This document shows, piece by piece, positions 1,026 to 40,251 of a stretch of DNA of 64,000 nt; within the stretch, counting starts at the first letter, position 1; each line of letters begins with the position of its first letter. The stretch spans positions 58,759 through 122,758 of the IMG/VR virus record IMGVR_UViG_3300029957_000007; one strand, given 5' to 3'. The notes beneath the pieces were generated by a model that worked only from the letters and a program-made list of their open reading frames with translations, was not told the origin of the DNA and did no database searches. The stretch comes from a virus. The position numbers were made by a program, and so were the translations under genes.

Positions 1026-1196
1026 ATGACACTCGTTCGCTATGGCGTCAACAAAAGCGTGAAGAAGCCTGATCTTGCGTCAGATCTTCCTAGCACTGCT
1101 AAGAAGCACGTTGCTGAGGTCAAGCAAGCTGAACTGAAAGGAGATAAGCATGGCAAAGCCGCTGAACGACCTGCTGGCGAGCTTCGCAGAGGCTGA
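1026..1196 (+). CDS. Small basic protein, 56 aa, unknown
   Basis: The ATG at 1026 is preceded by a perfect AGGAGG ribosome-binding site 6 bases upstream, directly after the stop of the previous gene. The product is 56 aa, lysine-rich, with no recognisable domain. It overlaps the start of the 590-aa gene by 47 bases in another frame. The gene is supported by the strong ribosome-binding site and by filling the gap between two genes. It is not supported by homology, and it could instead be a leader that couples translation to the downstream gene. Confidence 0.5.
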   Translation: MTLVRYGVNKSVKKPDLASDLPSTAKKHVAEVKQAELKGDKHGKAAERPAGELRRG

Positions 1197-2922
1197 GCAA
1201 AAAGTCGCTGACATGGCTCCTTCGGTGAACATGCCTCAGAACGATTCGCTGCAGAACACGACTGGGATTGAGGATCATGACGATCAAGATCCCAATCACA
1301 AGATCGAAGAGTTCCGCGAGGATGCGCAGGACGAACCAACCAATCTTCGTCGTAACGACTTAGATGAAGAGATCAAGCTCCTCGAAGCAGCGATCAAGAA
1401 ACTCGCCGCGTACGTCCTGCAGACGAACGACCCGGACGCATTCATGATCTATAGGACAATCAAGCGATTGCTCACAGACATGAAGCTGAAAGAAAAAGCG
1501 GCAGCTGTTGATCTCGAGCAAGGTCGCTACGATCATGAATCACAAGAACGCTATGGCTCGAAGAAGTTTAAGCGAGTTGCTTTCTTCAAGCCTGGGACGA
1601 TGATCGACTTCAAGCACAACGATGAGATCTGGACTGGAACTGTCATTGGTAATGATGGCGTCATGTTGTTGGTTGATCATCCGCCGACAGATGCCGCTGG
1701 GCCAATGAAGGTCGATCCGTACTCAGTTGTCGATCATGGTGAAGAGGATGACGAAGCAGAAGAGGTTCTTGAGTACAACAAGAGGCAGGAACTTTTGGAT
1801 TGGCCTGACCGCGATCATTTGTACGTTGGGTCTCGTCACTTCAATGCTGAAGAACTGTCTGACCTCAATGGCGAAGCTCAAACAGATAAGACGAAGGCTC
1901 CACAGCCAGTTGATATGCGAGCCAACTCACAGCATACACCAACTGATTCGAATCCAAAGGCTTCAATCGGCATGAAGCGAAAAGCTGACATCACAGACAT
2001 GCAAGGACAAGACATCGATGTTCATGACGTTGTTGAGTGGGAAGGAAAACAAGTTGAAGTTGTTGATGTGATGGACAGTGGGAACATCATGATCTCATAC
2101 GACGACAAGCTTGTTGGTGTGCACCCTCAAGAGACAGTGAAAGTCGGCTTCTACAAGAAGTCAGAGAAATTCGTCAAAGCTTCATTGGCCAAGCGATTGG
2201 CCTATGATATTGGCGATGGTGCTGACATCAAAGATAAGGTAGATCAGTTCCGTAACAGCGAGAAGAACGGCTCAGTCAAGACGGCTGAAGAGACGTTCAA
2301 GCACGGTGAAGTCGTCACCGTCGATGGTGAGAAATTCAAGGTCGTTCAGCAAGATCAAAACGGCGATCTCGATCTCATGGCCATTGATGACGACACAGAC
2401 GTCATTACCGTCAATCCAAGTGAAGTCATCAGATCAGCATCAAAGAGGATTGCAATGAAGCGAACTGCGAACGACAAGCTGATGAAGCATGTCGACTTTG
2501 ACGACATTTCCTGCGGTGTGGAATGGCCGAAGGATACAATGCGTCAATACAGCGATGGCTTCAAACAGCACATGAAATGCGATTATGGCTACGTTCGCAA
2601 TTCGCTTGGCGATGATGGCGAAGATCTTGATTGCTACATCGGCGATCCGCAAACGCAGAAAGTACATCGCATCGATCAGTTGGTTCCAGAAACTGGAGAA
2701 CATGACGAGTACAAGTACATGCTTGGATTCCCAGACACCAAAGCTGCTGTCGGCATGTATCTGCAACACATGCCGCTCGAGCATTTTGGTGGGTGTGATG
2801 AACTGAGCATGGATCAATTCAGACACATCGCTCGAACTGGTGATGAGGAACTGCAACAGTACCAAGAACCAGTGAAGGAAGGCGCTGAAGACATTTCCCA
2901 CATGGAAGGCGAAGGAGCTTAG
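1150..2922 (+). CDS. Modular head-region protein with C-terminal inorganic-pyrophosphatase-like domain
   Basis: A 590-aa protein; start ATG 1150 has AAAGGAG 6 bases upstream. An acidic N-terminus is followed by small beta-barrel (KOW/SH3-like) modules. Each begins just after a basic motif: FKRVAF (K141), MKRKAD (K276), AKRLAY (K348) and SKRIAMKRTA (K432/K437). Residues ~450-560 (CDYGYVRNSLGDDGEDLDCYIG, then an MLGF segment and a YLQHM-HFGG tail) match the phage inorganic-pyrophosphatase-like domain known from polyvalent proteins. Proteins of that class are often carried in the virion. The repeated basic motif is shared with the capsid precursor and the protease-scaffold protein, so I infer processing during head maturation. 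The pyrophosphatase activity itself is not demonstrated by sequence alone. Confidence 0.75.
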   Translation: MAKPLNDLLASFAEAEQKVADMAPSVNMPQNDSLQNTTGIEDHDDQDPNHKIEEFREDAQDEPTNLRRNDLDEEIKLLEAAIKKLAAYVLQTNDPDAFMIYRTIKRLLTDMKLKEKAAAVDLEQGRYDHESQERYGSKKFKRVAFFKPGTMIDFKHNDEIWTGTVIGNDGVMLLVDHPPTDAAGPMKVDPYSVVDHGEEDDEAEEVLEYNKRQELLDWPDRDHLYVGSRHFNAEELSDLNGEAQTDKTKAPQPVDMRANSQHTPTDSNPKASIGMKRKADITDMQGQDIDVHDVVEWEGKQVEVVDVMDSGNIMISYDDKLVGVHPQETVKVGFYKKSEKFVKASLAKRLAYDIGDGADIKDKVDQFRNSEKNGSVKTAEETFKHGEVVTVDGEKFKVVQQDQNGDLDLMAIDDDTDVITVNPSEVIRSASKRIAMKRTANDKLMKHVDFDDISCGVEWPKDTMRQYSDGFKQHMKCDYGYVRNSLGDDGEDLDCYIGDPQTQKVHRIDQLVPETGEHDEYKYMLGFPDTKAAVGMYLQHMPLEHFGGCDELSMDQFRHIARTGDEELQQYQEPVKEGAEDISHMEGEGA

Positions 2923-2923
2923 C

Positions 2924-3895
2924 ATGAAGCGCATTGAAGGTGAAGGTGGTGAAGGACAGAGTTCTCAATCTGTTCCTTATTCTTCTGAACATTGGAAAGA
3001 GCTGAAGGATCGTGGTCTCACTACCTCCACACCTTCGCCTTCGATGCGTCAAACTGACTACAAGCAAGTGAATGCAGGGGATAAGTTCACCAGCTTAATT
3101 GCTGGTGAACTTACCGTTGCTTCAGTCACTGGTGAGATCACACACGTCGCTGACAAGAAAGGTCAGACGTTCATGGTCTCTACGGCGAGATTGAAAGAGC
3201 TCAAAGCCAAGCGTAGAAGCGTGAGCTTTAATATCGGTGTGAATCACGGTATGGTCATGATCTCATCTGAAGACGATCGTGACTCAGACCTGTGGAGATC
3301 AATGTGCGAGATATTCAAACGCAATGGCTACACACCTGACAGCGGCTATACGATGTTCCAGAAGCTTGACACGAACATTGAAGACGAAACTGCAAAGCTG
3401 ATCGCTGAGTTCGAGAAGGAAGGATACAAAGTTCATCAGGATTCTAGCGGTGGATTGAACAGCACTTTCTACATCTACTTCGATTCTGAAGATGCTGAGA
3501 GAGCCGCATCAAAAAGGAAGATCGTTGCAGTAATGAAAGAAAAGACGAAGACGCTGGTCTTCGATTTCGATGGCACTATCACATCGGAAAATACCTTCCC
3601 TGAGATCGCCGATCCTAATGAAGAGATCGTTGCGTACATGGAAGAAGCGAAACAGCTTGGGTTTGAGATCATCATCCATAGCTGCCGAACATCGTCTGAG
3701 CTGAATGATCAGAGCACTGCTGCTGAGCAACTCAAAGCGATGACTGACTACCTTGCACTGCACGATATTCCTTATGATGAGATCTGCACATCAGACAAGC
3801 CATTGGCCGTTGCTTACATCGACGACAAAGGCTGCAATGTGCTGGATGCGCAACGTCTTCGAAGCATCATTCATACTTCAAAGAGGATTCGATGA
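2924..3895 (+). CDS. Modular protein with C-terminal HAD-superfamily phosphatase domain
   Basis: A 323-aa protein starting one base after the previous stop. The N-terminal ~100 residues hold another small beta-barrel module (AGDKFTSLIAGELTVASVTG), ended by AKRRSVSF. A ~90-residue alpha/beta domain follows, ended by ASKRKIVAV. The C-terminal ~110 residues are a HAD domain: motif I LVFDFDGT (D214, D216), motif II HSCRTS, and the acidic motif AYIDDKGC after a DKP lysine. The last residues (SKRIR) again resemble the recurrent basic motif. HAD proteins of this shape hydrolyse small phosphorylated molecules or polynucleotide ends, and the substrate cannot be told. The gene overlaps the next by 4 bases (ATGA), so the three modular proteins form one translational unit. 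Confidence 0.8.
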   Translation: MKRIEGEGGEGQSSQSVPYSSEHWKELKDRGLTTSTPSPSMRQTDYKQVNAGDKFTSLIAGELTVASVTGEITHVADKKGQTFMVSTARLKELKAKRRSVSFNIGVNHGMVMISSEDDRDSDLWRSMCEIFKRNGYTPDSGYTMFQKLDTNIEDETAKLIAEFEKEGYKVHQDSSGGLNSTFYIYFDSEDAERAASKRKIVAVMKEKTKTLVFDFDGTITSENTFPEIADPNEEIVAYMEEAKQLGFEIIIHSCRTSSELNDQSTAAEQLKAMTDYLALHDIPYDEICTSDKPLAVAYIDDKGCNVLDAQRLRSIIHTSKRIR

Positions 3896-6642
3896 GCAAG
3901 ATCAAGACAACGGCTGATGCCGACAACTTCGATTTGACTGAAGGGATTTTGAACGACGCTCAAGTTGCTGCTTATGGCGAGCATGCGCCGAACAAGATCG
4001 ATCAGCCGAATGATTTTGCTTCGCCAGGAGAAAAAGCTCCTGATGGTTTCACAGCCTCAAGACGAGCTGCTGTGCGAACAAATGCCCCAGAAGAATTCAA
4101 CAATGAAGATGAGCTGATCGACTACTTCACTGATGTCAATCGCACTGGCGATGCGTACATGGTGAGAGCGATCATTGATGGTGCCACCACCTACGTCAAG
4201 TACCAGCGGGATGGCAACGTCATCAAGCGTCAAGCCTCAAAGCGAACTGCTGAGTCCTATCGTGTCACGGTGGAAACTGAGAGCGGCACCGAAGAGAAGA
4301 TCCGTATCCTCGATGCTACTTCAGAGGATGATGCGAAAGAAAAAGCAATGAAGCAATACAACAACTTAAAAGGTGTCATTAGCGTTGAGAAGGTAGCTTT
4401 TAAACGCACTGCTTCAGGCGACTACGAAGTTGGTGACATCTACACCGATGTCAATGGCAACAAGTATACGATCAAGTCTTCAACAGAGGAATCGTCAGTT
4501 GCAGATGAGTATGATGAAGCCTTCTTCAAGGTGGAAGTCAACCAAGCTGTTTTTTATGATGGTCCAAAAGTTGTTGACATGGAGATGAGTGAATCAGCGT
4601 TGGACGATCTTGGCTTGGTTCGAGTCGGTTCAAAGCGCACTGCTTCACGATACAAGGACTGGAATGGCAGAGAATTTGATGTGCTCAATGGCATCGAAGA
4701 TGACGACACAGTCACCGTCAAGTACGTTGATGACGGCAGTGAATCGAATGTCGATGCAAGGTCTCTCGCCAATTCGGTCAAAAAAGGAGACGTCGTGAAA
4801 GTCGCTTCAAAGCGCAAGGCTTCAATCGATAATGACGATGAGAGACAGAAATATCTTGCCTACATCAAGCATAACTTAGTCAGCTCACCGCCAAATGAGA
4901 TCAAGAATGATCTGCGCAAAGATGGCCTCTCAGAAGAAGAGATTAGCGGTCTCTTTGAAGAACTGAGAAACACTGTGACTGGTGCCAAAGGCATTCGTGT
5001 TGGCAAGCTTAAGCGCAAGGCGTCTTTTCAAGTTGGCGATCTTGTGAAGAACAAGATCGGTGAAGAAGGAAAAGTTGTTGAAGGTGATGAAGGCGATGGA
5101 ATGGTTGGTGTTGATTTTGGTGGGCCAATTGAGCTTATCGAAGTCACCGACCTACAGGCGTGGAATCCTTCAGGAACCGAGAACGACGTTGACAGCTTCA
5201 CGGAGAAGGGTACTTACGGTGTCAAGAGCAAGAACGCTCCAGATCCTGAGGACGCTGCTCACTCAACTGATGTGGACTACATCGCTTCAAAGAGAACCGC
5301 TTCAATGTCTGTTGGTGATAAAATCACTGATGGTAATGGAGAAACGTTCATTATCACCGGCTTTGCAGATAATGGTCGTGTGCTGGGTACGATTGATGGA
5401 GAAGAAACAGAATTTACTGAGAAAGAGCTTTATAACAAAGTTCAGAATGGTGAAGCCACTCGAGTTACTGGTTCAAAGCGAACCGCTGCTAAGATCGAAT
5501 GGAACAGTCAAACAATTTGGGCAACTCAAAACCCAGATGATGGCTCATATGAATTCGAATTTGGTGGTAAGGAGTTTTATCTGGAAGGTGACCAAGTCTA
5601 CAGGGCTATAGATGGTTCACCAATTGGCACTGGTAAAGTGATAGAAGCTTCAAAGCGAACAGCTTCATTCAAAGGTCAGCAAGTTGTTGTTGATGCTGAA
5701 GGTTTCAACTACGTCGAAGGTCTTGTTGCTGATGAAGGCACCATTGAAGAGTTGATGCAACGCAACGATGCAGCTGCTGCTCAAGGCGATTCGCTGATCG
5801 ATGATGGTATGGGCTTCGGTGCCGACACGCAAGCAGTGATCATCAACACGGAAGAAGGTGACGTGCTTGTGCCTTCAGAATTTGTGAGACAGCAAGTTGA
5901 ATCTGGCACAGTGGTCGGCCGTCTGTTCAAGAAAGCTGATGAACAACCACAAATTGGCGATACTCTTGTCGATGCTGAAGGTCGCAAAGCTCGTGTTATT
6001 GCATTTGGAGATGATGGGTCAGTGGAAGTTGAAGGGCCAGATGGCGAAACATATCACACTTGGCCAGATGGAGTGAAGATCATTAAACATAAAAATGTTG
6101 TTGATGCATCAACAAAACGCACCGCCAAAGGTTTCGGCATTGGTGACAAAGTGGAATGCGAGCAAGGCTTCGGTGTCGTGAAGGATATCGACTTCGATGG
6201 CGATGGCAATTCAATCTACACCATCTCGCTTGAAGGCGGCGGTGAAGATGATTACCAAGAAGGAATGCTTTCAAAAGCTGCTTTAAAACGTCTTGCTTCA
6301 GATGAATACGATTTTGAAGTCGGTGATCGATTCAGAGACAAAAACGATCTTGAATGGATTGTGATCGAGTCAACTGATAGCAACGATCCAAACGCTGACA
6401 ATCGCATCGGATTGATGGAGCCACTCACTGGCACGAAGATTTATCCTGATGCTGACAGCCTCGAAGCGAAGATCTCTTCTGGTGAGATGGTCAGAACATC
6501 AGCCAAACGTACAGCTGATGAAGCTCATGAAAAAGAAGAGATGGGTGAGGAACAACGCATCAAGAAAGATCTGGAAGAGATCGATGAGATCATCGATCAC
6601 ATGTTCGATGCTGACTCTAAGCAAGTGAAAGGAGTTGAGTGA
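3892..6642 (+). CDS. 916-aa polyprotein of tandem beta-barrel modules separated by SKRTAS-type motifs
   Basis: I recognise no enzyme domain. The protein is a string of ~55-95-residue modules. Several have the KOW/SH3-like pattern of VGD, a turn, a GxV strand, DGxV and G-E (for example after K374, K467, K742 and K799). Modules are separated by a basic motif, with its lysine at residues 117, 171, 248, 307, 374, 467, 529, 588, 742, 799 and 872 (forms SKRTAS, FKRTAS, SKRKAS, LKRKAS, LKRLAS). A degenerate FKKADE lies near 680, filling the one long gap. Composition is strongly acidic between motifs. The same motif lies in the capsid precursor and protease-scaffold protein, so I infer cleavage by the prohead protease into about a dozen small internal head proteins. 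Confidence 0.75.
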   Translation: MSKIKTTADADNFDLTEGILNDAQVAAYGEHAPNKIDQPNDFASPGEKAPDGFTASRRAAVRTNAPEEFNNEDELIDYFTDVNRTGDAYMVRAIIDGATTYVKYQRDGNVIKRQASKRTAESYRVTVETESGTEEKIRILDATSEDDAKEKAMKQYNNLKGVISVEKVAFKRTASGDYEVGDIYTDVNGNKYTIKSSTEESSVADEYDEAFFKVEVNQAVFYDGPKVVDMEMSESALDDLGLVRVGSKRTASRYKDWNGREFDVLNGIEDDDTVTVKYVDDGSESNVDARSLANSVKKGDVVKVASKRKASIDNDDERQKYLAYIKHNLVSSPPNEIKNDLRKDGLSEEEISGLFEELRNTVTGAKGIRVGKLKRKASFQVGDLVKNKIGEEGKVVEGDEGDGMVGVDFGGPIELIEVTDLQAWNPSGTENDVDSFTEKGTYGVKSKNAPDPEDAAHSTDVDYIASKRTASMSVGDKITDGNGETFIITGFADNGRVLGTIDGEETEFTEKELYNKVQNGEATRVTGSKRTAAKIEWNSQTIWATQNPDDGSYEFEFGGKEFYLEGDQVYRAIDGSPIGTGKVIEASKRTASFKGQQVVVDAEGFNYVEGLVADEGTIEELMQRNDAAAAQGDSLIDDGMGFGADTQAVIINTEEGDVLVPSEFVRQQVESGTVVGRLFKKADEQPQIGDTLVDAEGRKARVIAFGDDGSVEVEGPDGETYHTWPDGVKIIKHKNVVDASTKRTAKGFGIGDKVECEQGFGVVKDIDFDGDGNSIYTISLEGGGEDDYQEGMLSKAALKRLASDEYDFEVGDRFRDKNDLEWIVIESTDSNDPNADNRIGLMEPLTGTKIYPDADSLEAKISSGEMVRTSAKRTADEAHEKEEMGEEQRIKKDLEEIDEIIDHMFDADSKQVKGVE

Positions 6643-7019
6643 TGAGCTTCACACCATTGAACGTGAAGATCGATGCGACGGTGGTCGTCACACAGGCTAA
6701 CCCATTGAATCCAGCTGTTTCAAAGCCAGTGTACCAAGGTGTTGATTTCTCTGGGTTTGCTGATGCTCAAGCATCAAATGCAGATAACCAAGGGAATCTC
6801 AATATTCCGGCTAACACATCTGCGAATGTTCCACTTCCGGCAGGTACTACGAACTCCAAGTTCCTGTTCTATCGCTTCAACAACCCAGTGAATCTGTCTG
6901 GACTTGTGAGTGCGCAGAACACGAGATACGGGATTTTGGAGATCACATCGGCTGTTGCACTGACTGTTGCCGCAGGAATCAACGACACACAAGGCTTCGT
7001 GATGATCTTAGGAGCCTAA
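6642..7019 (+). CDS. Small virion protein, unknown
   Basis: A 125-aa protein; the ATG at 6642 overlaps the upstream stop (TGATG) with GGAG upstream. The predicted fold is all beta: polar strands with Asn, Thr and Ala, no cysteine, no charged helices. Position in the head block and composition suggest a structural or decoration protein. No family was recognised. Confidence 0.6.
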   Translation: MSFTPLNVKIDATVVVTQANPLNPAVSKPVYQGVDFSGFADAQASNADNQGNLNIPANTSANVPLPAGTTNSKFLFYRFNNPVNLSGLVSAQNTRYGILEITSAVALTVAAGINDTQGFVMILGA

Positions 7020-7709
7020 ATGAAAGTTCAGACAAAGAAAGCTTTTATGACGATCATCCTCGCTTTGGTGCTCATGAATCTCACAACAGTATGCGTTATA
7101 CTTGTTGTGCTTGATCGGAACACCAAAGCGCTGGAAGATGCAAAGGCTGAAGAAGTACTTGCACGAATTGGGGACAATAGGATGTTAAGGGCACGGAGTA
7201 ACTTTGAACTGCCGGGCTTTACACCTACCCACCTCGAACGTGTCACGAGGAACGCTGACACGATGGGAATACCGTGGTGGGTACCAGCCGGTATTGCAAA
7301 GCACGAAAATGGAGGTGACACGCTCGAGGTTGGGATGCAAATCATCCCAATGAACATCCGCATGAACACTCCAGTAATGGAGTGGCAGTACGTTGCACTC
7401 ATGCGAATGCTCAACCAACAGGCGTGGAGAGTGATACTCTCTGACCCTGAACTTCTGCCGAAGGTCCTCATACCTTTCGCTCAGAACTACAAATCGTCTG
7501 ACCCTCAACTGTGGCTGAAGCAAACCAACAATGCAATGATCGACTTCAGAAGCAGAGAGGAGATCTCGAAAGTAGCACATGACACGGTGGTGTCTGATCC
7601 ACCTTCACCTTCGAAGTTGAAGAAAAAGAAACCTTCGACTAAGAAGTTTCACAGGAAGTTTAGGATCAACCCTAAACTCAAACGAACACAAGGAGAAAAC
7701 AAACAATGA
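7020..7709 (+). CDS. Membrane-anchored lytic-transglycosylase-like protein
   Basis: A 229-aa protein whose ATG follows the previous stop directly. Residues 9-31 are one hydrophobic segment with a basic N-terminal flank, so an uncleaved signal anchor is likely. The region around 84-100 (IPWWVPAGIAKHENGG) resembles the start of an SLT/lysozyme-like domain with E96 as candidate catalytic acid. A later segment, EVGMQIIPMNI, corresponds to the usual GxMQ stretch. The C-terminus is a highly basic Lys/Pro tail. It may cleave peptidoglycan as an anchored (signal-arrest-release) lysin or act during DNA entry. The family match is partial, so the activity is tentative. It overlaps the next gene by 4 bases. 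Confidence 0.55.
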   Translation: MKVQTKKAFMTIILALVLMNLTTVCVILVVLDRNTKALEDAKAEEVLARIGDNRMLRARSNFELPGFTPTHLERVTRNADTMGIPWWVPAGIAKHENGGDTLEVGMQIIPMNIRMNTPVMEWQYVALMRMLNQQAWRVILSDPELLPKVLIPFAQNYKSSDPQLWLKQTNNAMIDFRSREEISKVAHDTVVSDPPSPSKLKKKKPSTKKFHRKFRINPKLKRTQGENKQ

Positions 7710-8263
7710 AGAAGATTCTGCTGGCTTTGCTGATCGCCGCTACCACAACCTTCGCTACCACCTCGTTGAAGGCCGATCAGGCCGTGACGACTGCCGCTGC
7801 CGTGGCTCCTGCCTCGGATCAGGTGCAGTTGGACGGCGCCAAGTTCGTCGATGGCAATTGGTTCCAGATCGCTGGGTTCACCGGCGATGTGTCGAACTAC
7901 GGTGGCCCTGGTGACAGCACCATCACCGACCTGAAGAAGCAGCTGGACGACTATGCTGCTGCCAAGGCCAAGGCCGAGGGTGACGACAGCGACATCGCGA
8001 GCCGTGAGGATTGCGAGAAGTTGGCTGTTCGCTCAGCTGTTCGTGGCCAGTACGCCCTGGAAGTCGGTCGACTGTACGCCAAGGCTGGTGACACCGTCAA
8101 GGCGAAGGCTGCTTGGCTGCGAGCCTTGGCCTGGGGCAAGACCGCAGTGAAGGCGACCTACGACACCGACAACGATGTGGAGAACGGCAAGATCGCTGAT
8201 AACCAGAAGACCGGCGAGTTCGTGGTGAACACCGCCAAGCGTTGGTTGAAGAAGATCAAGTAA
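7706..8263 (+). CDS. Exported protein with Sec signal peptide, unknown
   Basis: A 185-aa protein. The N-terminus is a clear Sec signal peptide (MKKILLALLIAATTTFA, small residues, then KADQ). The mature part is Ala/Lys/Asp-rich and probably helical; residues ~115-150 (LYAKAGDTVKAKAAWLRALAWG) resemble one TPR-like helical hairpin. Base composition and codon choice are noticeably more GC-rich (gcc, aag, gac, ctg) than the flanking genes and match the capsid genes, suggesting high expression or a separate origin. A hairpin region follows directly. A secreted protein between head genes is unusual for a phage. Confidence 0.75.
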   Translation: MKKILLALLIAATTTFATTSLKADQAVTTAAAVAPASDQVQLDGAKFVDGNWFQIAGFTGDVSNYGGPGDSTITDLKKQLDDYAAAKAKAEGDDSDIASREDCEKLAVRSAVRGQYALEVGRLYAKAGDTVKAKAAWLRALAWGKTAVKATYDTDNDVENGKIADNQKTGEFVVNTAKRWLKKIK

Positions 8264-8275
8264 AAGGGACCTAAA

Positions 8276-8339
8276 AGTCACCTCAGGGATCCATCTCGTA
8301 CCCCACAGGTTGGTCCCTGAGGCACCATTTAAGTGACTG
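8276..8339 (+). promoter_or_regulatory. Structured intergenic element with outer hairpin and CACAGGTTGGTC core
   Basis: The arms CCTCAGGGA (8281-8289) and TCCCTGAGG (8314-8322) pair, and AGTCAC (8276-8281) can pair with GTGACT downstream of 8333. The loop contains ACC-CCACA-GGT-TGGTC. The same 12-base core CACAGGTTGGTC (8304-8315) recurs at 55356-55367, also inside a paired outer stem. There is no T-run, so a simple terminator is less likely than a processing or regulatory RNA element. Confidence 0.5.
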
Positions 8340-8371
8340 TGCATAATCAAACGGACTGACCGAGGAGCATC

Positions 8372-8710
8372 ATGCCTGACATAGCGATCACATGTGATGG
8401 TGAAGAGGTAAACATCACTCGACTTGATAAAGCATTCGGCTTCAATACTCTCACTGATCTCGTGGAACATGCTTCTGGTGAGGAACTAAGCTACACTCCA
8501 GAACTTTACGAGAACGGTGAAAGGCTCACCATCAAATGCTTCACATTGGAAGATGCTCAAAGGTTAACGAAGCGAATCCAGTCGGAAGTGCCGAACCACA
8601 TCATTGGAAGTGCTGTTGAAAAGACAGAGATCAAGAAAGAGGATGCCAATCCTCCGGATGACGATGAAGGTCCGAAGGAAGAGCTTCCAAAGGACGAGAT
8701 CCAGTCCTAA
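8372..8710 (+). CDS. Small acidic head-region protein, unknown
   Basis: A 112-aa protein; ATG 8372 has GAGGAG 7 bases upstream. The first ~80 residues are a compact alpha/beta region. The last 30 are a charged Glu/Lys/Asp/Pro tail (KKEDANPPDDDEGPKEE). It lies directly before the protease-scaffold gene, so a head-assembly role is plausible. No family was recognised. Confidence 0.6.
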   Translation: MPDIAITCDGEEVNITRLDKAFGFNTLTDLVEHASGEELSYTPELYENGERLTIKCFTLEDAQRLTKRIQSEVPNHIIGSAVEKTEIKKEDANPPDDDEGPKEELPKDEIQS

Positions 8711-8724
8711 ACACGGAGGAAGGC

Positions 8725-11601
8725 GTGTTACTGAGATATGCGAAAGCCAAGATAACACGAATCGCCTCGTGGGATGAGATCTTTATCAGAGACAGAAAGG
8801 TCAGAACAGCTTCCATCCTGGAAGACAAAGCACTTGATCGTACCATTCAGATCAAGCCAATCGCATTGAACCCACAGAAGTATTTGTATGTTCAAGCGAG
8901 AGCAGTGAGTGGCGGTGAAGTACATGGTCCAAACGACAACGGCGACTACTTTCGTTGGGAGGAGCTGCAAGAACGGTACATGACGTTCATTGGAGCTGCT
9001 GTCAACATCGACCACAAGAACAACGCACCAGAATGGGCTTGTGGTATCATCATCGACGCACAACTCAATCCTGAACAATGGGTTGAGATCGTCATGGCTA
9101 TCGATAAAGCAAAAGCAGAGAAGTTGTACCCTGGAGTCATCAAGAAAATTGAGGCTGGAGCTATCACAGACGTCTCAATGGGCTGCTTGGTAGAATGGTC
9201 GATCTGCTCAACTTGCTTGAGAACGAAGGCCGATGGCGATGAATCGAAGCTTGTGCAGGGTCAAGGGCTTGCAATGGAGCCTGAAGATTATTGCGAGCAT
9301 GTCGATGAAGATTCGCCTGCATTCTGTAAAGGAATGCCTGATCCGGATGGAGAGATCTGCCATGAAGATAATCGTGGCGTGACCTTCTTTGAAGAGAGCA
9401 TCATCACAACTCAAGGCGCAGATCCAGACGCCAAACTCGGACAACGCTTTGCGTCTGTCAAGATCAACGAAAAAATTCGAATCGCTTCATTCGCTCCACC
9501 TCAGCACACACCTTCAGACAAGTCGGCATTAGCGCCGTACATCAACTTTCGGTCACTCGACAATGTGCGACTTGCACATTTGAAACGGATCTCAAAAGGA
9601 GAAGATAGCATGGGTGCTGAGAAGAAGCCAGTGGTTGCTGCTGGTCCGGGGAATCCAACGGATACAGAGCAGGACAGAGGCGATTACGGCAAAGCCAGCG
9701 AGAAGGACAAGGCTCTCTTCGATCAAAGCAAGCAGAAGAGCCAGAAGGAAGACGAGAAGCGAGGCAATGAGGTGGAGACCATGATCGACCGTGGCGACTA
9801 CACACTCGCTGCTTTGGCTGCAGTGCAAGTCCTTCGCAAAGCTGGTAAGGCCGATCCAAAGCTGATCGCTTCCCTGCTGCCACTCATCGCCTCGGAAGAG
9901 GAAGTTGAGAAGCCAGGCGAGAAGAAGGCTGATGAGGTCGACATGCACAAGGACAAGGCGAAGCCCGGTGAGGAAGAGGGCGTCGAGGAAGTCCCTGAGA
10001 AAAAGGAAGTCGGTGAGAAGCCAGGCATGGTTGAGAAGGGCGAAGAGGAATATGTCGAGCCAACAGCTGCCACTGCTGCTAAGAAAGATGTGAAGCTGAG
10101 CGGCAAGGATTCCAAGTTCGCTCAGGCCAAGGCTGTTTTGGCTGATGCAATGAGCAAAATTGGTGCCATCCTTGGCAATCCTTTAGAGACCGCAAAGGAT
10201 GCTGGCGATTACGATGCTGGCGATGTGAACAAAGAGACCAAGTCAGTGGCTGACAGCAATGCTGGTGCCACTGAGAAAGAGAAGAAGGCGCAAGATGCCG
10301 CTGGCAATTCGACCAAAGAGGATCGTGAGAAACAGGTCGAGCTGGCCAAGCGTGCTGCTGCCAAACAGCGCAAAGCTGATAACGAAGACAAGAAAGTGGA
10401 CTTCATCACGAGTGAGATGATGAAGGGCAAGAACTTCGACGACTCCAAGCAAGAAGCTGATGAGCGCTATAAAGAAGACGAGACTCGTCAAGCCGCTGCT
10501 GAGCCAGAGATGAAGGACGGCACAGACAAGACGCAGAAGTCACCAGCCACTGAAGACAAGGCTGAAGGCGAGAACAAGATGCAAGACAAAGAATTGGATC
10601 AAGAGAAAGCTGGTTCCTCAGTCGAGAAGCCTGAAGTCGAGCGAGAGATCGCTGCTGGCAAGAAGGTGAAAGCTGAGAGCACCGAAGAGGAAATGCAAAA
10701 AGGCACTGAAGAGACCAAGGACAGCAAGAAGGAAGCCGCTGCTGAAGAGGCTCCCGAGTCGAAGGAAGAGAAAGAGGTCGAAGGCGCCAAGGAAGAGAAA
10801 TCCGAGAAGCCAGAGGAAGTGGTTGGGAAGCTCGACACCGCTGCTGCCGCCTTTGAGGACGAGGAGAAGAAGCTGAAGGAAGAGGCCGCAAACCTCGCCT
10901 CCCTCGGCCTGAAGGAAGAGGCGAAGCTGATCGTCAAGCGGATCTCTTCACTTCAAGAGAAAGTCGCTGTGCTGAACAGCCTGGCGAACAAGATCGAGGA
11001 CAACGGCAAGCGCGTTGCTTCGGTTGCGAACATTGCTCAGCGGAAGAAAGCGCTGGGTCAGTTCTCCATCATGGTCAAGAAGGCCTCGGTGATCCTGGCT
11101 GAGGTCTGCAAGGGCGATGATGAGGAGAAGAAGACGGTCGAGTCTTCGATGCAGAAGTCGGCTTCGGCCAAGCGGCTTGCTTCAGAGAATGCTCAACTGA
11201 AGGCCTCCCAATTGAAGCAGCAAGCGGCTATCCAGCGCATTGCTCGCTCTCAAGCGGTCTCCAGCCTGATCAAGATGGCGAAGGAGAAGGGGCTGATCGA
11301 CGAGACACAGGTTGCGAGCACCATCGAACGCTGGTCTAAACTCTCGGATCCTGCTTTTGCCGAGATCAAGGCCCACTTCGCTGCTGCAAAGCCTGTTCGA
11401 GTGGCTGGTGTGCAGGGTCTGCGCAAGAATCTCCGTGAGGCTGCTGCGGGCTTGACCCGTGTCGCCAATGGAGAACTTGAAGGCGTGGAAGCTCCTGTGG
11501 CTGGCTTGATGAAGCAATCGGACCTTGACGAACAGCTGGCGGACATGTTCATGGACGATGCTCGTGCCATGGGCAGCAAAGGACCCCGCGGAAGCTTCTA
11601 A
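8725..11601 (+). CDS. Prohead protease-scaffold fusion protein
   Basis: A 958-aa protein starting at GTG 8725 with GGAGGAA upstream. Residues ~50-165 fit a herpesvirus-assemblin/phage prohead protease: a GPNDNGDYF-WEEL segment, H97 in VNIDHKN and S151 in TDVSMGC as the probable catalytic pair. Residues ~300-740 are a very long Glu/Lys/Ala-rich, mostly helical scaffold, followed by a coiled-coil tail. Motif R-x-A-S occurs at R12 (TRIAS), R27 (VRTAS), R252 (IRIAS), R763 (KRVAS) and R817 (KRLAS). Variants occur at R288, R739, R838, R892 and R912, consistent with self-cleavage and scaffold breakdown. Protease-scaffold fusion is known in phages, but this one is large. The cysteines at C154, C161 and C164 are also notable. 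Confidence 0.85.
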   Translation: MLLRYAKAKITRIASWDEIFIRDRKVRTASILEDKALDRTIQIKPIALNPQKYLYVQARAVSGGEVHGPNDNGDYFRWEELQERYMTFIGAAVNIDHKNNAPEWACGIIIDAQLNPEQWVEIVMAIDKAKAEKLYPGVIKKIEAGAITDVSMGCLVEWSICSTCLRTKADGDESKLVQGQGLAMEPEDYCEHVDEDSPAFCKGMPDPDGEICHEDNRGVTFFEESIITTQGADPDAKLGQRFASVKINEKIRIASFAPPQHTPSDKSALAPYINFRSLDNVRLAHLKRISKGEDSMGAEKKPVVAAGPGNPTDTEQDRGDYGKASEKDKALFDQSKQKSQKEDEKRGNEVETMIDRGDYTLAALAAVQVLRKAGKADPKLIASLLPLIASEEEVEKPGEKKADEVDMHKDKAKPGEEEGVEEVPEKKEVGEKPGMVEKGEEEYVEPTAATAAKKDVKLSGKDSKFAQAKAVLADAMSKIGAILGNPLETAKDAGDYDAGDVNKETKSVADSNAGATEKEKKAQDAAGNSTKEDREKQVELAKRAAAKQRKADNEDKKVDFITSEMMKGKNFDDSKQEADERYKEDETRQAAAEPEMKDGTDKTQKSPATEDKAEGENKMQDKELDQEKAGSSVEKPEVEREIAAGKKVKAESTEEEMQKGTEETKDSKKEAAAEEAPESKEEKEVEGAKEEKSEKPEEVVGKLDTAAAAFEDEEKKLKEEAANLASLGLKEEAKLIVKRISSLQEKVAVLNSLANKIEDNGKRVASVANIAQRKKALGQFSIMVKKASVILAEVCKGDDEEKKTVESSMQKSASAKRLASENAQLKASQLKQQAAIQRIARSQAVSSLIKMAKEKGLIDETQVASTIERWSKLSDPAFAEIKAHFAAAKPVRVAGVQGLRKNLREAAAGLTRVANGELEGVEAPVAGLMKQSDLDEQLADMFMDDARAMGSKGPRGSF

Positions 11602-11652
11602 CATTAGTGAGCGAAGCTCATTAGTGTCCTTGAGCTGGATGATCTAGCTCAA
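11601..11652 (+). terminator. Tandem hairpins between scaffold and decoration genes
   Basis: A 12-bp stem with two G-U pairs (11601-11612 with 11616-11627, loop GAA) starts at the last base of the stop codon. A second stem, TTGAGCT with AGCTCAA (11630-11636 with 11646-11652), follows. There is no U-tract. An attenuator or RNase-processing site that raises the level of the downstream capsid-gene transcript is the likely role. Confidence 0.5.
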
Positions 11653-11672
11653 ATGCAATGGAGGAAAGAACA

Positions 11673-12143
11673 ATGGGTATGCAGGTCCTGCAACTCAGCT
11701 TCAAGGATGGCAACATCCCGTTGGATCCCACCGTGGCTGCGAACGGCTACTTCGGTGGTCAGCCCGCTGCCATCAATTCGCTCGGTCAGGCCACGAAGGC
11801 TACCAGCGGTGGTGGTTCACCGGCTTACATCGGCATGTTCAAGAACTCACAGTACGAGGACGCTCAGAACGGCAACGTGACGATCGTCTTCGGCGCTAGC
11901 AAGGTGCAGTTCATGAACGGTTCGGACCAGGTGGAGAACACTGACCTGTCAGGCAATGTGATCGAAGGCGCTCCGTATGATACCACTCAGACGTACGCCA
12001 ACGCTCAGTACCTGTACATCGATCACGTGTCCGGCCTGTGGACCAACCAGAGCGCTGGCAACGGCACTGCGAAGGGCATCATCACCAAGGCCCCGACGTC
12101 GACAGACTCGACGCTGGAAGCCTACATGTTCGCCGTCGCCTAA
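11673..12143 (+). CDS. Probable head decoration/stabilising protein
   Basis: A 156-aa protein. I chose ATG 11673 because GGAGG at 11660-11664 is correctly spaced for it, while the in-frame ATG at 11658 lies on top of that site. The product is all-beta, Gly/Ala/Thr-rich, with strands such as GNVTIVFGASKVQF and ends with a YMFAVA strand. GC-rich, highly expressed-type codons and position between the scaffold and the major capsid gene are typical of a capsid decoration protein (lambda gpD-like position). The family is inferred from context. Confidence 0.65.
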   Translation: MGMQVLQLSFKDGNIPLDPTVAANGYFGGQPAAINSLGQATKATSGGGSPAYIGMFKNSQYEDAQNGNVTIVFGASKVQFMNGSDQVENTDLSGNVIEGAPYDTTQTYANAQYLYIDHVSGLWTNQSAGNGTAKGIITKAPTSTDSTLEAYMFAVA

Positions 12144-12185
12144 GCCAACTCAACCGACATAACTGTCACCGGAGGAATCACAACA

Positions 12186-13154
12186 ATGGATCCGAGAATG
12201 TCACGTGCCATGCAGGCTTTCGCTTCGGCTTACAACGGCGACCCTGCTACTGCCGGCAAGCACCCCGGCCAGGTGAGCTCTGAGAAGCGTGAGGCTGCCA
12301 AGCGCATGCATCTTCGTCGTGAGGCTGCTCTCACCCAGGCTCTGCAAACCGAGGCTGGTCTGAAGCGCATCGCCGCGAACATGTCGAACCCTGTCCGCTT
12401 CAAGTTGGACTACAAAGGGATCTTCCGCAAGTTCGTCATTGTGGAACAGATGCCCGATGGCGTCCCGCTGATCTGGGACAAGGATCAGCCGCTGGCTCCT
12501 GCCGTGAAGGTCGGCAAGGGCGGTTCACCTCGCATGATCGAGATGCGAGGCAAGCGTGTGGAGCTCCAGGCCTTTGAGATCGCCAGCCGTGTGAAGGTTC
12601 CTTACGAGGAGCTGTTCACTCGCCGGTACAGGGCCCTGGATCGTGCCAAGGATCGTCTGATCGAAGGCATGGAGCTGCGTGAGGATCTGATCGGCTTCTC
12701 GCTGATCGAGACCGCGAGCTCCCTGGTTAACACCCCGGTGGTGACGGCCGGTGCTTTCGACCGTGATCTGCTGGCCAAGATGTTCGTGCAAGTGGAAGCC
12801 AATCGCTTGCCTGTTGCGACGGTTCTGATGTCGCCATACGGCACGATGGGCATCCGTCGTCTGCAGTTCCAGAACCTGGACCAGGTCGGCATGCAGGAAG
12901 TCCGGGAGACCGGGTACCTCGGCAACATGTGGGGTGCTGACTTCTACGTGTCAGATCAGATCCCGGCTGGTACGGCTTACGCCTTCACCGGTCCAAAGTT
13001 CTTCGGCTGGATGCCGATCCGCAAAGACACCGACGTCATCCCTGCTGATGACCCGGACAATCTGCGCCTCGGCTTCGTCGGCTATGAGCTCCTGGCCATG
13101 ACGATCTTCAACGCCCTGGGCGTGGTGAAGGGCAGCTTCAACATCGCTGCCTAA
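12186..13154 (+). CDS. Major capsid protein precursor
   Basis: A 322-aa protein; ATG 12186 has CGGAGG 10 bases upstream. The first ~64 residues are helical and charged (a delta/pre-domain) and end in LKRIAAN (K60-N65), matching the recurrent basic motif. Cleavage there would leave a ~258-residue mature shell protein starting near SNPVRFKLDY. The body has an HK97-fold-like pattern: RFKLDYKGIFRKFVIVEQ, a long helix around the RALDRAKDRLIEGMELRED stretch, and the late NALGVVKG segment. Codon use is the most GC-rich of the window, consistent with the most abundant protein. It follows scaffold and decoration genes in the usual order. Confidence 0.85.
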   Translation: MDPRMSRAMQAFASAYNGDPATAGKHPGQVSSEKREAAKRMHLRREAALTQALQTEAGLKRIAANMSNPVRFKLDYKGIFRKFVIVEQMPDGVPLIWDKDQPLAPAVKVGKGGSPRMIEMRGKRVELQAFEIASRVKVPYEELFTRRYRALDRAKDRLIEGMELREDLIGFSLIETASSLVNTPVVTAGAFDRDLLAKMFVQVEANRLPVATVLMSPYGTMGIRRLQFQNLDQVGMQEVRETGYLGNMWGADFYVSDQIPAGTAYAFTGPKFFGWMPIRKDTDVIPADDPDNLRLGFVGYELLAMTIFNALGVVKGSFNIAA

Positions 13155-13177
13155 GATCGACTGACGCAATGTGGAAG

Positions 13178-13206
13178 GAGGAGGAGGAGCTATCAGCCTC
13201 CTCCTC
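13178..13206 (+). terminator. Hairpin after the major capsid gene
   Basis: GAGGAGGAGG (13178-13187) pairs with CCTCCTCCTC (13197-13206) across a 9-base loop, 23 bases after the capsid stop. No U-tract follows. It is probably a transcript 3' end, pause or stabilising structure for the capsid mRNA. The purine-rich arm could mimic a ribosome-binding site but no suitable gene starts from it. Confidence 0.6.
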
Positions 13207-13243
13207 TAACCATTATCCTCTGACTCAAACAAAAGGAACTACC

Positions 13244-13696
13244 ATGTCGAATGCTAAAGTCGTGACACGTGAGATGATCGAGAACATCCGCTTCGTTCAG
13301 AACACGTTGAACGCTCAGCTGATGATCCCTGACCTGGGCAAGAACGGCATCGTTCTGACGCCTTACGAGATCGTGGACTTCTCTCGCTTCTTCTCCAAGC
13401 GTGAGCTCGGTCAGTCATCGCACTTGGATTACTGCCTGAAGGAAGGGCATCTGAAAGTGCTGGAGACTCCTGCCAATGTTGCCGAGGCAACTGGCGAGAA
13501 TCTCAAGTTCAAGGACGCTGTGCAGGAAGAGGACAAAGAGAAGCTGCGTGGTGAAGAGCTCCCGAAGGACACGCCGGTCACTGATCGTGTTGAGACCAAG
13601 TTCGATGAGGGTCTGGACAAGGTTGAGGACAAGGAAGACCAGGAAGACGAAGAGACCAAGCTCAGCAAGAAGCGTCGCAAAGCCAGCCAGGAATAG
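13244..13696 (+). CDS. Acidic head accessory protein with C-terminal RKAS motif
   Basis: A 150-aa protein. ATG 13244 is preceded by AAAGGAA; an upstream in-frame ATG at 13169 would read through the capsid hairpin and is not used. The N-terminal ~85 residues form a compact domain (helix, then IVLTPYEIVDFSRFF). The rest is strongly acidic (EDKEDQEDEE). The last residues are KKRRKASQE, the same R-x-A-S motif found in the scaffold and polyproteins, so the protein may be trimmed by the prohead protease. The location just after the capsid gene suggests a head or head-neck accessory. Confidence 0.6.
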   Translation: MSNAKVVTREMIENIRFVQNTLNAQLMIPDLGKNGIVLTPYEIVDFSRFFSKRELGQSSHLDYCLKEGHLKVLETPANVAEATGENLKFKDAVQEEDKEKLRGEELPKDTPVTDRVETKFDEGLDKVEDKEDQEDEETKLSKKRRKASQE

Positions 13697-29143: not shown

Positions 29144-30796
29144 ATGGCATCCCCAAATGAAAAGATCGTTCAGGAACTCGGCCTTGTCTTCACGACCGAT
29201 GAACAATCGAAAGAACAGGTGCTGAGATCTCTTGATGAGATCAACAGCAAAGCCAAGTCAGTCAACGACAATATGGCGGCTGGTAGTGAAGGTGCTTCTA
29301 AGCTCTCTGAGACATTGAGGAAAGATCTTGGTGGTGCTCTTGATAAGTTCTCGCCTGCTTTAGGTGAGATCGGCGGCTTGTTGAAAGCAGCTGGGCCAGT
29401 GACTGCACTGGTCACTGGTTTTATCTTGGTAGTCGATAAGATGGCTGACTTGAATAAAGAAGCTGTTGATGTCAATCGCCAATTCTCTTCGATGTACTCA
29501 ACGATCAAAGACATTGCTGATCTTCAGAATCATATGTCCATGATGGGCTATGATAAAGAGGAGACAAACAACATCACTAGCCGTTTGGCTAGGAATGGGG
29601 CAGCTTCGACAGCTGAACAGCTCACAGATGCTACTATCACGACTGGTGCCTTTGCAAAGATGACTGGCATGGAGACATCATCTGTCGCCAATATGATTGC
29701 GATGGCAGTTAAGAGCGGTGCTCTTGATGCCAACAATTTGCAAGGTGGCGTGTTTGGTGAAGGTGGAAAACCTGGTCTATTCCAGAACATGACTAAAGGC
29801 GCTGCAGAAGCTTCAATGTCGATGGAGCAATACTCCAAGTCTTTGTTTGATCTTTGGGGAACCACACGCAACTACAATATCAGTTTTGAAGATACACAAA
29901 AGCTGATGGGTCGTTGGGGTGATTCGCTGAACAAAGGCATTGTGTCGTTAAATGACATTGCCGCTTTGTCGACTGGCAGCAAGTTCAGCGATGGTCAGAA
30001 GATCTTCATGGCTCAACAAATGGGCATTGAAGGATCGCCACTTGAGATGATGACGAAGTTCGAAGCTAGCCTGAGTAAACCTGAATTCCAAGAACGACTT
30101 GGAACGAAGGTCTATGACATGGCTAAGCAAAGAGCTAAGAGCCCAACAGAGATGGTTGAATGGGTTCGAATGATGAATGATACGCTGACTGGTGGTTCAA
30201 TTCCCGGTCTAAACTCATTGGGTGGAGCTCTTTCATTTTTAGAGTCTCATGCATCTGATCAAGATCGTGGCAAGTATTTTGCTGCGTTCCCAGGCGTTGT
30301 TAACAACCAGAATGAAGAACAGCGCGTCATTGCTAGAATGCAAAATGAAAGTTTGGCTAATGATAGGGCAAAGCGTTTGAATAGTCCAGAAGCGATCAAA
30401 GATCAATTGGGCATCGATGTGATGAGCACTTCAGGCGTTTTGTCTCTGGCAAAACGAGCAGTTGGGCTTCTCTACAATGACATTGGTGCTGGAGCTGACC
30501 AAGAAGGAACGATGAGACATGCGATGGGATTTGATTCTCAACGCGGTTTGAAAGCGTTTCAAGGTCTTGATCCACATCAACAAGCTGAAGCATTGAGAGA
30601 AATGTCAAAGTTCACTGGTGCTACTCAATCGAAGCCAATTGAATTGAAACTTGACAATCACCAATCACTTGACATCAACATCAAGATGAATGGTCAGCAA
30701 GTCAGTACACAACGATTGAACAGCAAACCTGGAACCCAATCGTTCACGCTACCAGCTGGGATGGATATGGGTATCACAGTTGAAGGGCATAAGTGA
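29144..30796 (+). CDS. Tail tape-measure protein
   Basis: A 550-aa protein starting one base after the chaperone frame. Mostly helical, with an N-terminal coiled-coil-like region (NEKIVQELGLVF, LRSLDEINSKAKSVNDNM) and a hydrophobic helix at ~84-105 (AAGPVTALVTGFILVVDKMA). There are many Gly/Ala helices and a beta-rich end (QSFTLPAGMDMGITVEG). Location after the frameshifted chaperone and before baseplate genes defines it. Its length sets the tail length; 550 residues is short, implying a short contractile tail. It overlaps the next gene by one base. Confidence 0.8.
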   Translation: MASPNEKIVQELGLVFTTDEQSKEQVLRSLDEINSKAKSVNDNMAAGSEGASKLSETLRKDLGGALDKFSPALGEIGGLLKAAGPVTALVTGFILVVDKMADLNKEAVDVNRQFSSMYSTIKDIADLQNHMSMMGYDKEETNNITSRLARNGAASTAEQLTDATITTGAFAKMTGMETSSVANMIAMAVKSGALDANNLQGGVFGEGGKPGLFQNMTKGAAEASMSMEQYSKSLFDLWGTTRNYNISFEDTQKLMGRWGDSLNKGIVSLNDIAALSTGSKFSDGQKIFMAQQMGIEGSPLEMMTKFEASLSKPEFQERLGTKVYDMAKQRAKSPTEMVEWVRMMNDTLTGGSIPGLNSLGGALSFLESHASDQDRGKYFAAFPGVVNNQNEEQRVIARMQNESLANDRAKRLNSPEAIKDQLGIDVMSTSGVLSLAKRAVGLLYNDIGAGADQEGTMRHAMGFDSQRGLKAFQGLDPHQQAEALREMSKFTGATQSKPIELKLDNHQSLDINIKMNGQQVSTQRLNSKPGTQSFTLPAGMDMGITVEGHK

Positions 30797-31500
30797 TGGC
30801 ACGACACAGAGTGATCTTCGTCGCCGGTCTGGGCAACTACTTGCCAGGACAACTCTCAAGTCCAGCACAAGCTGCTTCATTTGTCGCTGGTGTAGCATCT
30901 CTTGGAAATCCTGTTTCAGCTGCTACTGTTGCACAGTCAGGATCTCTTATCAATCCAGCGGTTGGATTGGGATCTCAGATCGCAACAGCGGCTTTGTTGA
31001 AAAACGCTGGATCGCTTGGTATCCCACAGAATCTACAGAACTTCATCTCAGCGTCATTGAACACTGGCGGTCTATTTGTTGAACTGCTTTTGAATCCACA
31101 GCGGATCAAAGAAGAGCAACAGAAGATCATTACAAAGCAACCTACGGCGAATGGTTACGCCTACTTCCATTGGGGTCTCGAGCCTAAGAAAATAACGTTT
31201 GAGATCATCACCAAATCGCTGAGACCGAAGATCAGCGACAATGGAGTGAGTGCTTCAGATGCACAAAGCAATTTGGATCAGATGGAGAAGTTCTTTCAAG
31301 TCAACAACTTCAATGTGGGGCTGATCTACCAAAATAAGATCTACGTTGGACACTTTGAAGGCGTTTTCATGAAGACCAGAGATGTGAACAATCCGAACAT
31401 CACTAGCGCAAGTTTCACATTCATCGTGGATAAGATCCCGAGTGTGATGGTGCCTGGTTTTGGATCGTTCAACATCAACACCATCCCTTTCAATGTGTGA
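30796..31500 (+). CDS. Baseplate/tail-tube junction protein
   Basis: A 234-aa protein. ATG 30796 overlaps the previous stop; a GTG three bases earlier is also possible. The N-terminus is an Ala/Gly/Ser-rich segment (~10-85). The C-terminal ~140 residues hold GYAYFHWGLEPKKITFEIITKSLR and a hydrophobic beta-pattern ending VPGFGSFNINTIPFNV. The position fits the T4 gp48/gp54 or LysM-type hub-adaptor slot between the tape measure and the hub. The function is inferred by synteny. Confidence 0.55.
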   Translation: MARHRVIFVAGLGNYLPGQLSSPAQAASFVAGVASLGNPVSAATVAQSGSLINPAVGLGSQIATAALLKNAGSLGIPQNLQNFISASLNTGGLFVELLLNPQRIKEEQQKIITKQPTANGYAYFHWGLEPKKITFEIITKSLRPKISDNGVSASDAQSNLDQMEKFFQVNNFNVGLIYQNKIYVGHFEGVFMKTRDVNNPNITSASFTFIVDKIPSVMVPGFGSFNINTIPFNV

Positions 31501-31502
31501 TC

Positions 31503-34905: not shown

Positions 34906-34909
34906 TAGC

Positions 34910-37913: not shown

Positions 37914-37922
37914 GGGTGAACC

Positions 37923-39821: not shown

Positions 39822-39831
39822 AGGAATCTTC

Positions 39832-40251
39832 ATGAGCGATGAGCTGACGCCAGAAGATCGACGGTTGCTCTCAGAAGTCGGCTTTCAAGTTCAGGCTATG
39901 AACAAGCGCTTGGATGAAGTGAAGACGCTTCTGTTCGGAGATCATGCCGATGGGTTCATGTACAAATTCGCAAGAATGGAACCCGACATCGAAAGGATCC
40001 CAGAGATCAAGAAAGTGCTTGACGACATGGTGAGAGAAGCCGGCAATCTTTCAGATAAGATTGGTCCGCTTCTGACGATGGCCCAAAAGCATGACGATTA
40101 CATCAAGACACAGACAGTGTACAAAAATGTGATCGTCATCTTGATCTCGACAGCAACTTCTGCAGCTGTAGCTGTTTTGACAGCATGGACTCTTTACAAC
40201 CAGCTGTTAGAGCAACTTGCAAAACAAGCGGTGAAGGGTGGGACACCATGA
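39832..40251 (+). CDS. Single-span membrane protein, holin candidate
   Basis: A 139-aa protein. The first ~95 residues are charged and coiled-coil-like (EVGFQVQAMNKRLDEVKTLL). A transmembrane segment spans ~97-119 (YKNVIVILISTATSAAVAVLTAW), then a short tail. The position between the fibre and the patatin gene, next to a second membrane protein, is typical of a lysis or host-envelope module. The holin role is inferred only. Confidence 0.5.
   Translation: MSDELTPEDRRLLSEVGFQVQAMNKRLDEVKTLLFGDHADGFMYKFARMEPDIERIPEIKKVLDDMVREAGNLSDKIGPLLTMAQKHDDYIKTQTVYKNVIVILISTATSAAVAVLTAWTLYNQLLEQLAKQAVKGGTP

Follow-up and report, generated by a model that had tools for sequence, protein, structure and literature searches.

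A K/R-R-x-A motif as the predicted cleavage signal of a phage prohead protease

Motif occurrence across head-region proteins

We examined a stretch of 64,000 nt (hereafter the window; bases 58759-122758 of the 122,758-base IMG/VR record IMGVR_UViG_3300029957_000007), along with the 58 kb upstream of it, from an uncultured phage whose head-region genes include a prohead protease fused to a scaffold-like tail, a major capsid protein (MCP), and several proteins built from repeated modules. A short basic motif, K/R-R-x-A, often continued by Ser, recurs across these proteins. We consider it very probable (roughly 0.87) that this motif is the recognition and cleavage sequence of the phage's prohead protease, which would cut after the Ala. 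A first-pass annotation of the window had proposed the motif as a prohead-protease signal, and the proposal is supported by a cut known from phage G, by motif placement in the portal and protease, and by enrichment in relatives. Cleavage itself is predicted; the cutting of these sites by this protease, the order of the cuts, and the fate of the fragments are what we infer from these lines of evidence.

The motif was found at every position previously listed, with some additions. All 11 KR-x-A sites of the 916-amino-acid (aa) protein are present (Table 1), as are two further ones, KRQA at K112 and RRAA at R57. The protease-scaffold fusion carries its five listed sites and extra sites at R241 (RFAS) and R912 (RVAN), and the motif at K60 of the MCP reads KRIA. 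In the 590-aa protein, where four to five related forms had been counted, there are five KRxA sites as well as RSAS at R428 (FKRVA, MKRKA, AKRLA, IRSAS, SKRIA, and MKRTA). The acidic protein at the end of the block does end in the motif (KKRRKASQE); its earlier length of 150 aa reflects a start at the second ATG, and it is 175 aa long at 13169-13696. The motif had been written as R-x-A-S, of which the core, K/R-R-x-A, holds, while Ser is only the commonest next residue. D, N, A, K, E, and M also follow the motif Ala, and among 54 R.A sites in this phage the next residue was Ser in 20 and Ala in nine. P3 is R or K, and P4 is mostly K.

Motif counts were compared proteome-wide with composition-preserving shuffles (5,000 shuffles, floor p 0.0002). 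The pattern [KR]R.A occurred 13 times in the 916-aa protein (0.40 expected) and five times in the 590-aa protein (0.18 expected), both at the shuffle floor of p 0.0002, and four times in a 399-aa protein beside the portal (0.23 expected). The longer form [KR]R.AS was found 12 times in the proteome of the whole record (122.8 kb), versus 1.0 expected, and all 12 occurrences fell within four head-region proteins. Reversed patterns and patterns with the Ala substituted occurred at expectation in this proteome. When all three-residue patterns were enumerated without a prior in eight head-region proteins, KR.A ranked first (26 versus 1.6 expected, z 20.9) and R.AS second (19 versus 1.0), and KR.A was absent from the leading patterns of the non-head remainder. 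Because it was in some of these eight proteins that the motif had first drawn attention, the enumeration is not independent, whereas the test in relatives described below is.

The prohead protease

The predicted catalytic residues of the protease, His97 and Ser151, are invariant across an alignment of 33 proteases. An AlphaFold2 model had a mean predicted local distance difference test score (pLDDT) of 75, with most of residues 51-230 above 80. Its best PDB matches in Foldseek were T4 gp21 (probability 1.00, top), followed by the proteases of varicella-zoster virus (VZV), Kaposi's sarcoma-associated herpesvirus (KSHV), and human cytomegalovirus (HCMV); E-values were modest (4e-3 to 6e-2), with probabilities of 0.66-1.00 among the top ten. 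The best match in BFVD was phage G gp19 (E 1e-21). A PDB sequence search with the protease profile returned no match. Membership of the prohead/herpesvirus protease superfamily is therefore supported by the modelled fold. The genes for the protease-scaffold fusion, a decoration-like protein, and the MCP are consecutive, an order shared with phages G and E3, and the 161-aa decoration-like gene occupies the position of phage G gp26, annotated as a decoration protein.

Eight IMG/VR huge-phage relatives (L040, L048, L050, L056, L071, L082, L086, and L087) have enlarged protease genes of about 920-1370 aa. The extra sequence, with ends such as HSYVANGVAVHN, resembles inteins placed next to the catalytic Ser or to other conserved motifs, so the activity of these proteases may depend on protein splicing.

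Predicted position of the cut in the capsid protein

The MCP of the window is homologous to gp27 of Bacillus phage G (36% identity). Phage G gp27 has 282 aa, and its mature form has 255 aa by N-terminal sequencing (Hua et al. 2017, PMC5646251 Table 1); residues 28-282 have a computed mass of 28,170 Da versus the published 28.2 kDa. The loss of 27 residues places the phage G cut after Ala27 (...EEGRVALA↓QAMANPIR, with the arrow marking the scissile bond). Ala27 aligns exactly with Ala63 of the KRIA in the window MCP (...EAGLKRIA↓ANMSNPVR), which puts the predicted scissile bond after Ala, with K-R at P4-P3. By comparison with phage G, K/R-x-A↓S sites in this phage are thus probably cut after the Ala, and the predicted mature MCP would start after Ala63, with 259 aa and 29.0 kDa. 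Of the 100 related MCPs compared, those grouping with phage G, the huge phages, or the window have Ala in the P1 column, and those of actinophages (RLG↓QS) and Virus Rctr197k have Gly. The window site has Ala on both sides of the predicted bond (A↓A) and not Glu before it, which sets it outside the Glu-P1 class.

Portal and protease as putative substrates

Motif sites also fall at the expected propeptide ends of other head proteins. The portal reads HGLGRRKA↓NFADV, with the motif at residues 43-46, and the phage G portal has NIQRKMA↓SPSVG in a roughly equivalent N-terminal stretch. Actinophage portals carry MPRVA↓SNTQI, VTRQA↓SSVQM, or MRKSG↓SNMQI ahead of the conserved start of the portal fold. 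In SPN3US, both the portal and the MCP are cleaved.

In the protease, RIAS (12) and RTAS (27) lie within the low-confidence model segment 1-42, and RFAS (241) and RIAS (252) border on or fall within the C-terminal end, also of low confidence (243-263), so that the folded domain stands between the N- and C-terminal sites. Near residue 25, the huge-phage proteases from IMG/VR have VR[VIT]A[SA]; those of the phage G type have KTA[KSA] near residue 50. An anchored conservation profile of the protease N-termini is circular at P3 and P1, and unanchored listings were used instead.

Module proteins

With its SH3-like modules joined by apparently cleavable linkers, the 916-aa protein resembles a head polyprotein. 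Cutting after each motif Ala would yield mostly pieces of 54-93 residues and 6-10 kDa, with isoelectric points (pI) mostly of 4.1-5.4. A representative module, modelled with the other modules as its alignment, formed a five-stranded small barrel with disordered motif-bearing ends (pLDDT 68). Its neighbours in the PDB (SH3-like, PWWP, Tudor-type, and FeoA folds) all fell short of a significant E-value. A close relative, L004 (MCP 87% identical in its second half), has a homologous module protein that keeps this plan, with linkers KRKA↓G, KKKA↓E, RRKA↓F, and RKKA↓V, in which Ala and basic residues are retained and Ser is lost. In the same relative, the MCP gene is split in two by a homing-endonuclease-like open reading frame (ORF; L004:6230-7093), which suggests a group I intron in that gene.

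The two neighbouring proteins combine motif sites with enzyme domains. In the 590-aa protein, SH3-like modules are split by KRxA sites, and IRSA↓SKRIA↓MKRTA↓N stands immediately before the inorganic pyrophosphatase (InPase) domain; no other named domain was found in this protein. Cleavage is predicted to release the C-terminal pyrophosphatase; inside the head, such an enzyme could be active while DNA enters or shortly afterwards. The 323-aa protein has ERAA↓SKRK immediately before its HAD domain and, with this single motif, is a weaker candidate substrate. Two module proteins encoded upstream of the window, of 296 and 399 aa, are probably further substrates of the same head protease.

We propose that the protease-scaffold fusion (protease residues about 43-240, with His97 and Ser151) would be assembled, together with the module proteins, into the core of the prohead. 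After completion of the prohead, the protease would free itself at the flanking sites R12, R27, and R241/R252, trim the N-termini of the MCP (after Ala63) and the portal (after Ala46), and fragment its own scaffold tail. The 916- and 590-aa proteins would be cut at their linkers into modules of roughly 5-10 kDa and the C-terminal pyrophosphatase. The small acidic modules might then exit the head and leave space for the DNA, or they might remain inside as internal proteins that are injected; whether the head holds separate mature modules is, in our estimate, an even bet.

Enrichment in related phages

Searches of IMG/VR or GTDB genomes with the 916-aa protein, the protease, and MCP alignments gave nothing usable, and relatives were recovered with the phage G and LR745208 MCPs as queries. 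The MCP of LR745208, an uncultured phage of 485 kb, retrieved 445 IMG/VR relatives, of which 80 were kept. The test set consisted of 46 dereplicated proteins encoded between the protease and the MCP in LR745208-type huge phages.

The motif was strongly enriched in these proteins, with 288 occurrences of [KR].A[SAND] versus 94.9 +- 8.6 expected (z 22.5). Control patterns in the same proteins stayed near or below expectation (reversed, z 0.7; [DE].A[SAND], z -5.4; [KR].G[SAND], z -0.5; [KR]..A[SAND], z -0.9). The overlapping control [KR]A[SAND] was also high (z 12.1), because K-K-A-S fits both forms. Other ORFs at the same loci showed a weaker excess of [KR].A[SAND] (z 7.4), as would be expected if there are further head proteins among them. 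In the logo of scaffold sites, P3 is K/R and P1 is A, both fixed by the anchor, and P1', which was free, is S. The pattern was over-represented in actinophage protease-scaffold proteins too. The first-pass annotation had suggested asking whether the motif, and not its surroundings, is conserved in homologues; it recurs in huge-phage protease N-termini and scaffolds and, in varying form, in the portals of phage G and actinophages, and the scaffolds of relatives are otherwise different in sequence.

Alternative explanations

The motif could instead be a basic tag, left uncut, by which head proteins dock onto the scaffold or bind DNA, since basic patches in proteins whose modules are acidic could bind an acidic scaffold or DNA. 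However, basic patterns without Ala at the third position were not enriched, the motif Ala aligns with the residue just ahead of the mature gp27 N-terminus sequenced in phage G, and sites stand at the propeptide ends expected for the MCP, portal, and protease, which leaves this explanation improbable. We regard as slightly less probable still the possibility that, in the 916- and 590-aa proteins, the motif marks module boundaries multiplied by duplication, with a linker copied together with its SH3-like domain and reflecting ancestry rather than a signal. Both proteins do consist of repeated similar modules, yet the pieces of the 916-aa protein have only 19-40% identity to the reference module while the linker core is kept, and the eight KRTA copies all differ in DNA, which argues that selection acts on the peptide. 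Given this codon diversity and module divergence, we rejected duplication as the origin of the pattern; the motif is also present in the unrelated MCP, portal, protease N-terminus, and scaffold, and in relatives' scaffolds of otherwise different sequence.

An R-x-x-S phosphorylation motif was the alternative named in the first-pass annotation, and the R/K-R-x-x-S spacing does suit basophilic kinases, with KRTAS resembling a protein-kinase-A site. However, the Ser is lost from the L004 linkers while the Ala is kept, it is absent from KRTAE, KRTAD, KRTAK, and KRIAA in this phage, and [KR]R.S was found at expectation (15 versus 14.5). No kinase was found among the proteins scanned, in a genome that is mostly unannotated. 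We rejected a kinase site as extremely unlikely, on the basis of the unconserved Ser and the [KR]R.S count.

Several observations weigh against a prohead-protease signal of the form proposed here. Within the lineage, a cut has been mapped by experiment only in the phage G MCP (RVALA↓QA), and the P3 residue there is Ala, not K/R, so a basic P3 would be a preference and not a requirement. Likewise, RLG↓QS in actinophage MCPs and SALG↓AS in the MCP of PaBG indicate that a basic P3 is not universal. PaBG was tried as an independent case and set aside: its protease falls in the wider fold family, but its MCP, portal, and protease lacked K-x-A enrichment. KxA was almost absent from the PaBG head proteins checked, and PaBG thus lies outside the reach of the code. 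For the phage G group, the excess was z 6.5 in proteins encoded between protease and MCP and z 5.7 in the other ORFs of those loci, so that group adds little to the test of enrichment. The 916-aa protein was assigned to the head from its position and the motif alone. Finally, the listed motifs may not all be used; in SPN3US, several motif matches within propeptides lack demonstrated cleavage.

Feature positions

Table 1. Features of the head block and upstream genes, in window positions unless marked as record positions; sites are given by residue within the named protein.
Feature	Location	Strand	Basis or comment
590-aa head-region protein	1150..2922	+	Pfam PF18823 E 2e-23; PHROG 4660 minor head protein
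Inorganic-pyrophosphatase domain (PF18823), C-terminus of 590-aa protein, residues 445-559	2482-2826		
323-aa protein with C-terminal HAD-phosphatase-like domain (residues 192-306)	2924..3895	+	
916-aa putative head polyprotein, about a dozen SH3-like modules and KRxA(S) linkers	3892..6642	+	
KRTAE site K117	4240..4254	+	916-aa protein
KRTAS site K171	4402..4416	+	916-aa protein
KRTAS site K248	4633..4647	+	916-aa protein
KRKAS site K307	4810..4824	+	916-aa protein
KRKAS site K374	5011..5025	+	916-aa protein
KRTAS site K467	5290..5304	+	916-aa protein
KRTAA site K529	5476..5490	+	916-aa protein
KRTAS site K588	5653..5667	+	916-aa protein
KRTAK site K742	6115..6129	+	916-aa protein
KRLAS site K799	6286..6300	+	916-aa protein
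KRTAD site K872	6505..6519	+	916-aa protein
958-aa prohead protease with charged (E/D/K-rich) scaffold-like tail	8725..11601	+	PHROG 18299 head maturation protease E 9e-11; AlphaFold2, Foldseek
RIAS at R12, putative N-terminal propeptide site of protease	8758..8769	+	low-confidence model segment 1-42
RTAS at R27, counterpart of huge-phage protease VRxAS site	8803..8814	+	
His97, invariant, predicted catalytic	9013..9015	+	alignment of 33 proteases
Ser151, invariant, predicted nucleophile (DVSMGC)	9175..9177	+	
RIAS at R252, just past folded protease domain	9478..9489	+	low-confidence segment 243-263
RVAS at R763, scaffold part	11011..11022	+	
RLAS at R817, scaffold part	11173..11184	+	
161-aa head (decoration-like) protein	11658..12143	+	gene order; PHROG 1731 virion structural protein, weak
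Major capsid protein precursor, 322 aa	12186..13154	+	PHROG 2522 E 2e-44; PDB 6wkk gp27 E 2e-54
KRIA K60-A63, predicted maturation cut after Ala63	12363..12374	+	aligned with phage G gp27 mature N-terminus
175-aa acidic protein ending KKRRKA↓SQE, site 13673-13687	13169..13696	+	
Terminase large subunit	record 30784-32874		upstream of window
SH3-like module protein, 296 aa, KRxA sites	record 34771-35661		upstream of window
SH3-like module protein, 399 aa, KRxA sites, next to portal	record 37083-38282		upstream of window
Portal	record 38357-40057		upstream of window

The protein just before the head block (about 18-1016; record 58425-59774) is dominated by low-complexity Thr/Pro repeats (TPTxTPT), and TP patterns showed the strongest excess in the non-head proteome.

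Comparison with known systems and significance

The head block shares with phage G a homologous MCP and protease, the order protease, decoration protein, MCP, an MCP cut after the aligned Ala (predicted in this phage), and K-x-A-S motifs in the protease and portal. Phage G differs in the Ala at P3 of its MCP site and in having protease and scaffold as separate genes. Actinophages of the Bxz1, Myrna, and E3 type have a related MCP and a protease-scaffold fusion directly upstream of the decoration and MCP genes, whereas their MCP site is RLG↓QS (P1 Gly) and an SH3-module polyprotein was not found there. The proteases of T4 (gp21), phiKZ (gp175), and SPN3US (gp245) belong to the same superfamily by fold, and those phages likewise have a short motif common to the MCP, portal, internal proteins, and protease, with P1' Ser preferred in SPN3US. 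However, the T4, phiKZ (S/A/G-X-E), and SPN3US (AXE) enzymes cut after Glu, compared with a predicted P1 Ala and basic P3/P4 in this phage.

In herpesvirus assemblin, the scissile bond is A↓S with an aliphatic residue upstream. The phage protease resembles assemblin in its fold matches (VZV, KSHV, HCMV), in the protease-scaffold fusion, and in P1 Ala and P1' Ser, with the bond predicted here, and differs in having R/K at P3 and mostly K at P4 in place of the aliphatic upstream residue. The cleavage specificity thus appears to differ from the Glu type and, at P1/P1', to be like that of assemblin. The first-pass annotation had described a basic motif used by this phage, unlike the glutamate-based types; its non-Glu character stands, and the motif, in the looser form K/R-x-A, is shared by a large lineage of giant phages.

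The 590-aa protein also recalls phage polyvalent proteins, multi-domain proteins in which the same InPase domain occurs and for some of which assemblin-like processing has been proposed (Iyer et al. 2017, PMC5512222). It differs from them in consisting here mostly of repeated SH3-like modules, with linkers that contain explicit protease sites.

In the open-licence literature, the part searched, we came across no K/R-x-A↓S code for prohead proteases, and the prohead-protease motifs described there for large phages all end in Glu; no virion proteomics was found in the literature for Tunturi_5. The evidence for the code comes from genomes and one published N-terminus, that of phage G gp27. We give evenly balanced chances to a broader picture, in which a large lineage (phage G-like, LR745208-like, and this phage) uses a basic-x-Ala↓Ser code resembling the herpesvirus A↓S. 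In this phage, the 916-aa chain would then be cut into some dozen SH3-like mini-proteins, housed in the head, and the pyrophosphatase and HAD domains of its neighbours would be released, perhaps for injection. The code yields a directly testable prediction for the cultured relatives phage G and Bxz1-like phages. If true, it would make cleavage sites and mature head proteins predictable across a very large group of huge phages that are uncultured, and it would point to candidates for internal or injected proteins of the head. It would also mean that a herpesvirus-like Ala↓Ser specificity occurs among the tailed-phage members of this shared protease superfamily.

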